Of a DNA stretch of 64,000 nt, positions 9,255 through 42,385 are shown in pieces (within the stretch, counting starts at the first letter, position 1; every line of letters begins with the position of its first letter). The DNA lies in contig CALUVB010000023.1 in NCBI GenBank assembly GCA_944324115.1, positions 1-64,000 of the forward strand, given 5' to 3'. The notes under the pieces were generated by a model. It was not told where the DNA came from. It saw nothing but the letters and a program-made list of their open reading frames with translations, and searched no databases. Both the position numbers and the translations under genes were made by a program. Source of the DNA: an uncultured Elusimicrobiales bacterium. GTDB taxonomy: Bacteria; Elusimicrobiota; Elusimicrobia; Elusimicrobiales; Elusimicrobiaceae.

Positions 9255-10094
9255 TTAGTCCTCATAAGAGACAAAAGTTTTATTTGCGTCTTTGGCCCGG
9301 GCACGAATCTTGAACCCTTGTTCATTAACGCCGATACGAAAGTCTTTATTATCCAACACGCGCTGCGTATCACGCTGAAACTGGACAGGATCCCCCGACA
9401 ACAACGACAAACGCAGCAAATCGTTGGTATAATAACCGAAATAAGCGCGGTGCAGCCGCTCCAAATAAGCTATATTCTCCAAATGTTCCTGGGCTTGTGT
9501 CACTAATTGTTTCTGTGCCAGAGACCCCCCGCTAAACAACTGAGAATAACTATAATAGGCAACCCCTAAAATCAACAAAATCCCCGTCACCGACAAGGCC
9601 ATTTTTTCACCCCAGCCTTTAGGACGGGCCTGCATAACTTCTGAACCTGCCAAATAATCATGCAGCGCTCTCTTGCGGTTATCTATCAGCGCCAACAAGA
9701 ACCCGCACATCAGCAAAAGCGCGCTAATATAATACCCCACCGCGCGCACAAACGCGCGCCACAAGGAAAGAGGCTGCCCTGTTTTGGCATTTTCCACCCG
9801 GATTCCCACCAATTTCTTCCCCAAGGTACTGCGGCCTCCACAGGAAAAAATGGTTTCATATATGATAAAGGGGATATTTACCCCCAGCAAAATCCCATAT
9901 ATTCCCTCCAAGCTGGGCAACGTTTTATTGATATACATAGCCGCCAACAGCTGATAAGGAATGGAAATAACGGCCCAGTCTATCAACAAAGCGATAAAAC
10001 GTTCCCCCACGCCTGCCGGCTCAGACTCAACATTTTCCGTATTTTGTTCTTGAGGTACGGCGTCTTCCATAATATTGATACGATTTTCTTCCAT
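9255..10094 (-). CDS. RDD-family membrane protein with extra C-terminal domain
   Basis: This 279-residue protein has an acidic ~28-residue N-terminus and an RDD domain (residues ~28-160) with GERFIALLIDW, RSTLGKKLVGIRV and the closing RALHDYLAGSEV. A further membrane helix (ALSVTGILLILGVAYY) follows, then an ~85-residue soluble tail (AYLERLHRAYFGYYTNDL ... FRIGVNEQGFKIRARA). The tail, a helix leaving the membrane followed by a small mixed domain, recalls pilin/pseudopilin topology but lacks Cys and has no prepilin cleavage site. RDD proteins have no single known role. A GGGAG precedes the ATG and an extended -10 lies 30 bp upstream. A related architecture is encoded at 41552-42385. Confidence 0.8.
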   Translation of the reverse strand: MEENRINIMEDAVPQEQNTENVESEPAGVGERFIALLIDWAVISIPYQLLAAMYINKTLPSLEGIYGILLGVNIPFIIYETIFSCGGRSTLGKKLVGIRVENAKTGQPLSLWRAFVRAVGYYISALLLMCGFLLALIDNRKRALHDYLAGSEVMQARPKGWGEKMALSVTGILLILGVAYYSYSQLFSGGSLAQKQLVTQAQEHLENIAYLERLHRAYFGYYTNDLLRLSLLSGDPVQFQRDTQRVLDNKDFRIGVNEQGFKIRARAKDANKTFVSYED

Positions 10095-40375: not shown

Positions 40376-41242
40376 ATGAAAAGAATGAAATGGATGTTAG
40401 TGGTTTTTCTCGCCGTTTGTGTTACGGCCCCTGCATTTGCCCAATCTAACGAAAGACTCAACAAGTTAGACACGAAAACGTTAGATTCCATTAGAGCCGA
40501 CTGGAGAACAACTAGAAAGATAAAAAACAGCAAGATCATGAATGAACAGATGACGTCGAATGCATTCGCGGCACCAGTAAAGGCGCTGCAAAAAGAACTG
40601 GAAAAAGCATCTTTGAACTATAAGAAAGCCCAACTTGACAAAGCTTCTTCCGAATCAATCCGGCACAACTGCGAACGGATTCTTAAAAGTATTGAACAAA
40701 GCGGCAAATTCGACGCCCAAATGATTAAAGATTTGAAAACTTTGGCAGAAAACGAACAGGACCCGGAGAAAACACAGAGAGTGTTGTTAATGCTGGTTGC
40801 CCGATACAATATTGAATTGAATATTGAACCGGAAACAGAAGTGGTGTCCTGCGTCTCCTGCGGCAAAAAAATTACGGAAGAAGGCCAGCATTGCGCCGCC
40901 ACCGGTTATAACACCCTTTGCAGCAAGTCTGAAAAAGCAGATGAAGCATATTGCATTTATTGCGGCAAAAAAATCACGGAAGAAGGCCAGCATTGCGCCG
41001 CCACCGATTACAACACCCTTTGCAGCAAGTCTGAAAAAGCAGATGAAGCATATTGCATTTATTGCGGCAAAAAAATCACGGAAGAAGGCCAGCATTGCGC
41101 CGCCCAAGACTATAATGTCGCTTGCACAACGCATTGCCCAGACTGCGGACAAGATTTGCGCAACCCCGCAAATGTAGGCAACGACGGCAAACACCACTGC
41201 AAATTTAAACAGGTTATTAAACCGGCCGACATACAGAAATAA
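40376..41242 (+). CDS. Secreted protein with tandem Cys zinc-ribbon-like repeats
   Basis: This 288-residue protein has a signal peptide (MKRMKWMLVVFLAVCVTAP-AFA). A helical Lys/Glu-rich region (25-155) is followed by three tandem 34-residue repeats, each carrying CxxCGKKITEEGQHC and a further Cys (YNTLCSKSEKADEAYC). It closes with CPDCGQDLRNP ... HHCKF, which looks like a true zinc-ribbon knuckle. Such CxxCG pairs normally bind zinc in cytosolic proteins, so an exported version could bind metal or form disulfides. Function is unknown. GAGAGG lies 4 nt before the ATG. Confidence 0.78.
   Translation: MKRMKWMLVVFLAVCVTAPAFAQSNERLNKLDTKTLDSIRADWRTTRKIKNSKIMNEQMTSNAFAAPVKALQKELEKASLNYKKAQLDKASSESIRHNCERILKSIEQSGKFDAQMIKDLKTLAENEQDPEKTQRVLLMLVARYNIELNIEPETEVVSCVSCGKKITEEGQHCAATGYNTLCSKSEKADEAYCIYCGKKITEEGQHCAATDYNTLCSKSEKADEAYCIYCGKKITEEGQHCAAQDYNVACTTHCPDCGQDLRNPANVGNDGKHHCKFKQVIKPADIQK
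40859..41124 (+). repeat. 102-bp in-frame tandem repeat
   Basis: Copies start at 40859, 40961 and 41063. The first two are about 97% identical (3 differences in 102 bp by eye). The third matches for about 44 bp and then diverges. The period is a multiple of three, so copy number can change without frameshift. Confidence 0.9.
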
Positions 41243-41522: not shown

Positions 41523-41551
41523 GTATATATACTAGTAGGGAGGGTTTTGTT

Positions 41552-42385
41552 ATGTATGTAAGCATATGGAAGCGTTTTTGGGCTTTTATTATAGACGCAG
41601 CATTTTTTCTTTTATTATTTTGGATTTTAGCGCAAATCTTAGATAATTTCACCATTTCCATTGTATTGCTGGTAATTATTTGGCTCTATTATGCCCTGCT
41701 AGAAAGTTCCCCCTGGCAAGCCAGTTTAGGCAAACGAATTATGGGACTTAAAGTAGTGGATAAGCGGGGCCGCAGGCTGAGCTTTGGAAAAGCCACCAAA
41801 CGCTTGCTTTCCCGTGTGGTAACTAATCTGACTTTCTACTTCGGTTTTTTTACTGCCGCTTTTGATGAACATAAGGAGACTTTACACGATAAAATGAGCA
41901 AAAGCGTAGTCATTAATAAAAACGCCGAATTTAACCCTGACGATTACCAAGAGCCCGCCCACCATGATTTAACATTGATTACCATCATTTCACTCATTTT
42001 GGCTGCCGTGTTTGTAGCGGGATTATTATGGTGGGTTGTTCTTCCCCAATACCAAAAAATTGGAGACCGCTTAAATGCCGCCACCATCATAGATAATTTA
42101 AACTTAGCAGTCCAAAACCGCCCCGCCCGCTTACAGGCCGCCCAAGGCGGCCAGGAAATATGGCTCAAAAGCTACAGCGGCTGTGTCAATGACCCGCAGG
42201 ACCCGCTTACGCTTCAATGCCATGGCTACCGCATGACCCTGCAGCCGGAAGGGATTTTGGCAGTCAGCCGCCTTTCCGACTGGCATGAATACTCTCTGTT
42301 TAAATCGTATAAAAACGGCAAAATTACATGCGCAGCACAAACAAAATCTGCCATCAAATTTTGCCGCAGCCTGGATTTGCCTTAA
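41552..42385 (+). CDS. RDD membrane protein fused to pilin-like domain
   Basis: This 277-residue protein has an RDD domain in residues ~1-130 (YVSIWKRFWAFIIDAAFF, WQASLGKRIMGLKVVD, KETLHDKMSKSVV). A further membrane helix near 150-170 ends WVVLPQYQKIGDRLNAATI. That end is like the alpha-1 helix of the pilins encoded here (IALPQYQVAVAKSR). The ~100-residue C-terminus has two Cys pairs and finishes TCAAQTKSAIKFCRSL, close to the pilin D-region ends (such as YCYATSTNKVTNQVCSS). There is no prepilin cleavage site, so it would stay anchored by the RDD helices. Start set by GGGAGGG 8 nt before the ATG; the frame is open further upstream. Confidence 0.78.
   Translation: MYVSIWKRFWAFIIDAAFFLLLFWILAQILDNFTISIVLLVIIWLYYALLESSPWQASLGKRIMGLKVVDKRGRRLSFGKATKRLLSRVVTNLTFYFGFFTAAFDEHKETLHDKMSKSVVINKNAEFNPDDYQEPAHHDLTLITIISLILAAVFVAGLLWWVVLPQYQKIGDRLNAATIIDNLNLAVQNRPARLQAAQGGQEIWLKSYSGCVNDPQDPLTLQCHGYRMTLQPEGILAVSRLSDWHEYSLFKSYKNGKITCAAQTKSAIKFCRSLDLP

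Follow-up and report, generated by a model that had tools for sequence, protein, structure and literature searches.

The window, by which we mean the whole 64-kb stretch of DNA analysed, comes from a 1.53-Mb genome (G000); among named taxa, its closest relatives are Candidatus Avelusimicrobium and further Elusimicrobiaceae (gut Elusimicrobiota). At 41552–42385 on the forward strand it carries a gene for an RDD membrane domain followed by a pilin-like domain, with the open reading frame, strand and coordinates as a first-pass annotation had given them. The ATG at 41552 is conserved among orthologs, and a good ribosome site (AGGGAGGG) lies 5' of it. The features of the gene are as follows.

41537–41544, forward strand: Shine-Dalgarno-like sequence AGGGAGGG
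41552–42385, forward strand: RDD–pilin fusion gene, 277 aa, with start and stop conserved in orthologs
41552–41917, forward strand: RDD domain, residues 1–122 (PF06271, E = 2.6e-25; model pLDDT 91)
Within 41552–41917, forward strand: TM1 (residues 5–29), TM2 (32–52) and a strand (66–70) of the RDD domain
Within 41552–41917, forward strand: broken helices (78–93/98–104), LHD motif (111–113) and a strand (118–122) of the RDD domain
41918–41962, forward strand: acidic linker, residues 123–137, probably cytoplasmic
41963–42115, forward strand: pilin-type alpha-1 helix, residues 138–188, hydrophobic in its N-terminal half
42044–42382, forward strand: pilin head, residues 165–277 (hhalign with controls; PDB pilins), of which an antiparallel sheet (211–262) and a C-terminal Cys pair are parts
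42182–42220, forward strand: first conserved Cys pair, C211 (29/29 aligned fusions) and C223 (26/29)
42329–42364, forward strand: second conserved Cys pair, C260 and C271 (both 29/29), resembling the pilin D-region loop

Residues 2–116 of the fusion protein matched PF06271 at 89.7 bits against a cut-off of 24.1 (E = 2.6e-25), and the RDD signature residues R8, D15 and D113 were invariant or almost so across 68 sequences. This core, with R8, D15 and the LHD Asp113, is shared with Bacillus SppI/YteJ and the Halobacillus antiporter. The function of the RDD family is unsettled, and the roles reported differ between members: a Halobacillus RDD protein is a cation/proton antiporter (PMC5996927), Bacillus SppI inhibits SppA via its regulatory C-terminal domain (PMC7568657), and a third paper (PMC12419801) gives a predicted cytoplasm-facing intramembrane site. 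Neither SppI nor the Halobacillus antiporter has been described with a pilin head. In the predicted model, RDD residues 1–127 resembled chain B of the membrane domain of the Pex2/10/12 peroxisomal retro-translocon (7t92; VIA Z 10.5, 126 residues, 3.1 Å), and Foldseek matched the RDD part to chains A and C (probability 0.93 and 0.77). Sequence comparison gave this likeness no support, and we treat it as a lead only, since such a Z can be reached by chance for helical bundles; the 2022 Pex2/10/12 paper superimposes 4/5 TM segments among the three Pex proteins.

Pfam and NCBIfam scans of the fusion protein alone returned no pilin family, and its last 160 residues matched no family. Used as a lone query against 90 genomes of the family, the C-terminal half recovered its orthologs first and then many pilin-sized frames (E ~1e-5 to 1e-3), several of which were true pilins on reading. 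Profile–profile comparison of 26 orthologs with 33 true pilins of the clade scored 69.6 with the helix included; the head stripped of its membrane helix scored 40.6, compared with a mean of 11.3 and a maximum of 17.3 for 100 column-permuted profiles. Other proteins of the family carry overt pilin sequence after the RDD domain, such as GGILAAIALPQYARALEQARA (L046) and GILAAIALPQYFKAVEKGRLTEAL (L103). The window family matched 15 overt RDD–pilin or Zn-ribbon–pilin fusions (E = 4e-20), these matched true pilins (E = 2.7e-29), and the overt-fusion profile picked solved pilins (E = 5e-7), with the alignment running from mature residue 6. Both features that had first drawn attention to the protein, the WVVLPQYQK end of the helix and the terminal Cys pair, are present; LPQYQ falls at the pilin Pro22 position. 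All fusions keep Pro22 and nearly all keep LPQY, and invariant positions among the aligned fusions include a Trp and cysteines of the head. Judged from these comparisons of sequence, the C-terminal half of the 41552–42385 protein is homologous to type IV pilins.

Two AlphaFold models were built, from 29 and then 68 alignment rows. The 29-row model had a pLDDT of ~90 in the head and ~50–75 in the RDD domain, and the 68-row model a mean of 91. The best Foldseek match of the 29-row model was full-length PAK pilin (probability 0.93, E = 0.03), and after VIA re-alignment the best 16 matches were all pilins or pilus subunits. Model residues 143–277 superimposed on residues 1–142 of pilin 1oqw (Z 8.1, 116 residues, 3.7–4.0 Å), and the fusion helix lined up in register with alpha-1 of the pilin. 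The 68-row model matched 5v23 (Z 8.3), 1oqw (8.1) and 8tum (7.9); overall, the models aligned with solved pilins at Z ≤ 8.3 over 90–118 residues at ~3–4 Å and shared both alpha-1 and the antiparallel sheet with them. The Foldseek E values are modest (0.03–0.09) and Z-scores alone are no proof of kinship, but the Foldseek and VIA likeness and the sequence evidence together argue for kinship of the head with pilins, and the C-terminal half is predicted to adopt a true type IV pilin fold. The first-pass annotation had proposed an RDD–pilin fusion and named fold comparison and a profile–profile search as ways to check it. Each bears the proposal out, alongside the PF06271 match: pilins were the best C-terminal structural matches, an unrelated fold was not seen, and the head-only score lay well above its permuted maximum.

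All 29 aligned fusions lack the prepilin cleavage motif (G|F-T-L-x-E). Glu5 is also absent from the aligned fusions, mostly replaced by hydrophobic residues, and the RDD domain precedes the pilin helix. With neither a prepilin site nor Glu5, the protein should escape cleavage and polymerization and stay in the membrane rather than become a pilus subunit, in agreement with the membrane-fixed pilin first suggested. Within its RDD part, the model has main strands (66–70 and 118–122) that are presumably paired, helices (78–93 and 98–104) that are short and weakly hydrophobic, and a strongly basic loop after TM2. Strand pairing would put the LHD motif on the side of the basic loop and hence make the linker cytoplasmic and the head external; the four conserved head cysteines are consistent with a periplasmic head. 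We infer from the model that the N-terminus, LHD motif and linker lie on the cytoplasmic side, and that the pilin helix would be an outward-running TM segment leading to a periplasmic head with two disulfides.

The pattern recurs in orthologs, as expected of a real fusion. Of the 66 genomes examined from the genus Candidatus Avelusimicrobium, 28 have full-length orthologs; a different RDD–pilin fusion with overt pilin sequence was found in at least 10 further genomes, and whole-length profile matches in 2 more; two sister genera also have fusions (L099, L103). Among the matches listed from 341 genomes of the phylum, whole-length matches were confined to Elusimicrobiaceae, and in a domain-wide sample (290 genomes, 259 genera) RDD matches stopped near the RDD boundary, with one longer protein, both searches being thresholded and limited to one genome per species, so that rare fusions elsewhere are possible. 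The longer protein, from another phylum (G394, L150:1066–2196), has a Zn-ribbon–RDD–TM arrangement and a tail of >100 aa that looks pseudopilin-like by eye; it did not score as a pilin. The plasmids searched gave RDD matches and no RDD–pilin fusion. Because relatives keep the fusion, we regard the arrangement as real, and it is a new domain architecture made from two known families.

The locus is syntenic, lying downstream of uvrA and usually also of a YbaK-like gene; these and a secreted Zn-ribbon gene are its neighbours, and pilus genes are unlinked. Among the neighbours listed, no SppA was noticed. At 40376–41242 (forward strand) the window encodes a protein that looks secreted and whose Zn-ribbon-like repeats are almost identical (CIYCGKKITEEGQHCAATDYNTLC); in many orthologs it precedes the fusion on the upstream side. 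Head-less orthologs form one clade within the family, at the same locus and with RDD kept, in genomes that still hold many pilin-like genes. WVVLPQYQ still follows the helix in these truncated orthologs, which points to secondary loss of the head in that clade. Median dN/dS in two ortholog groups was ~0.065 for RDD and ~0.13–0.18 for the head, both below 0.2 and rough because dS is near saturation; the head is under purifying selection.

RDD–pilin proteins fall in at least two places in the RDD tree, with RDDs bearing short Cys-rich tails between them, so that either at least two fusions, or one fusion plus decay, gave rise to them. The C-terminal part swaps on RDD cores among a pilin, a short Cys-rich tail, ankyrin-like repeats and none; RDD proteins with ankyrin-like repeats in place of the pilin head were seen at L111:150–1697 and L184:419–1231. 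A second RDD protein in the window (9258–10094, reverse strand), present in 62 of the 66 genus genomes, has a weakly pilin-like C-terminal half (hhalign 23 versus a permuted maximum of 15.7).

The host has a very large stock of pilins. Across the whole 1.53-Mb genome the prepilin N-terminal motif gave 95 matches, of which 92 pass the curated cut-off, and six pilin genes lie inside the window. Such matches sit at the start or end of several contigs (for example, C3, C4, C5, C6, C16, C19, C20 and C24), which suggests that near-identical pilin starts break assemblies. An ordinary PilB–PilC pair followed by a minor-pilin cluster forms the type IV pilus (T4P) core cluster; this one small genome also holds a Tad-like set beside the PilB–PilC–minor-pilin cluster (C3:40954–44580 and C3:193000–198500). 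The first-pass annotation had suggested a platform or initiator role in pilus assembly. This part is not supported: a normal PilB–PilC pair and minor-pilin cluster exist, the fusion gene is unlinked to them, and one sub-clade dropped the head yet holds many pilin-like genes. A platform role in particular is not favoured, as PilC is already present and the fusion protein has no T2SSF domain (PF00482) in the Pfam scan; a separate T2SSF protein is encoded elsewhere in the genome.

The exchangeable C-terminal part, the missing linkage to pilus genes and the normal PilB and PilC together make a periplasmic module carried by an RDD core the preferred reading, to which we give about an even chance. 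An RDD-family inner-membrane protein would have acquired a type IV pilin domain, drawn from the large local stock, as its periplasmic ectodomain. Uncleaved and without Glu5, the product would remain membrane-bound and outside the pilus, and its head may serve as an exchangeable module for interaction or sensing, adjusting how active the RDD core is or which partners it has, by analogy with the way the C-terminal domain of SppI controls its partner. Counting against this reading, neither a partner nor a ligand turned up, nor did a conserved functional operon, the orientation derives from a predicted model and inference, and the retention of Pro22 in all fusions and LPQY in nearly all makes continued packing against pilins conceivable.

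That same Pro22, the register of the helix with pilin alpha-1, and the ~92–95 pilin genes present in the lineage beside a T4P core cluster would also suit a pilin mimic fixed in the membrane and docking on the T4P machinery, contacting pilins, PilC or the minor-pilin complex to prime, cap or inhibit assembly. We think this unlikely, because Glu5 is missing, pilus genes are unlinked, an ordinary PilC exists and the head is gone in a clade that retains many pilin-like genes. Slightly more doubtful still is the broader proposal that uncleavable RDD-anchored pilins, repeatedly fused, are a class of T4P regulators or docking factors in pilin-rich gut Elusimicrobiota. If the head did dock on the pilus machine, it would represent a new control route for pilus assembly.

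It is less probable again that the fusion is an incidental by-product of spreading pilin genes joining neighbouring membrane genes, with the head a passive folded tail in slow decay. The extreme pilin gene number, the contig ends in pilin starts, the shortened and decayed heads of several lineages and the like fusions on Zn-ribbon and TM2 proteins speak for such an origin, whereas the low head dN/dS in two ortholog groups, the invariant Trp and cysteines, and the full length kept in many genomes speak against it. That the C-terminal half combines a generic TM helix with a beta domain and resembles pilins by chance, as the missing Pfam/NCBIfam match and modest Foldseek E values would allow, is highly improbable given the profile chain through other fusions to true pilins, the head-only permutation test and the dominance of solved pilins among its structural matches.

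The periplasmic-module reading can be set beside known multidomain proteins. RDD is likewise a membrane module in VanZ–RDD and other RDD fusions, whose partners, in the passages on RDD of PMC12419801, are VanZ and kinases and not pilins. With type IV and minor pilins (PAK 1oqw, PilV 5v23, FimA 3sok) the fusion shares a long alpha-1, LPxY, an antiparallel sheet and a C-terminal Cys pair; unlike them, it has no prepilin leader, no Glu5 and an RDD membrane domain in front. Caulobacter CpaL (PMC12607857) also joins a pilin module to a second domain (vWA), but a prepilin site is predicted in CpaL and a place within the pilus has been proposed for it, whereas the fusion has an N-terminal membrane partner domain and no prepilin site. 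In line with the first-pass annotation, our search of open-access papers found no published RDD–pilin fusion, the one genome paper that turned up naming the RDD family and pilin a single time each, and a literature search returned no papers on pilin–Zn-ribbon fusions or uncleavable pilins. The fusion shows a polymer-forming pilin domain put to new use as the fixed ectodomain of an unrelated membrane scaffold; it recurs in many genomes, and its head is under selection. Since no function is agreed for RDD proteins, a periplasmic head whose fold is known offers a starting point in the search for partners.

Fusions of the same kind occur on other scaffolds: a Zn-ribbon–TM–pilin (L065:905–1441) and a Zn-ribbon–TM2–pilin (L061:1112–1942), both without a prepilin site. 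Elsewhere, pilin-type heads run into long Cys-rich repeat tails with GGICSG-like repeats (L049:234–1187, L050:1–1179 and L055:1951–3117), the last of these without a prepilin site.
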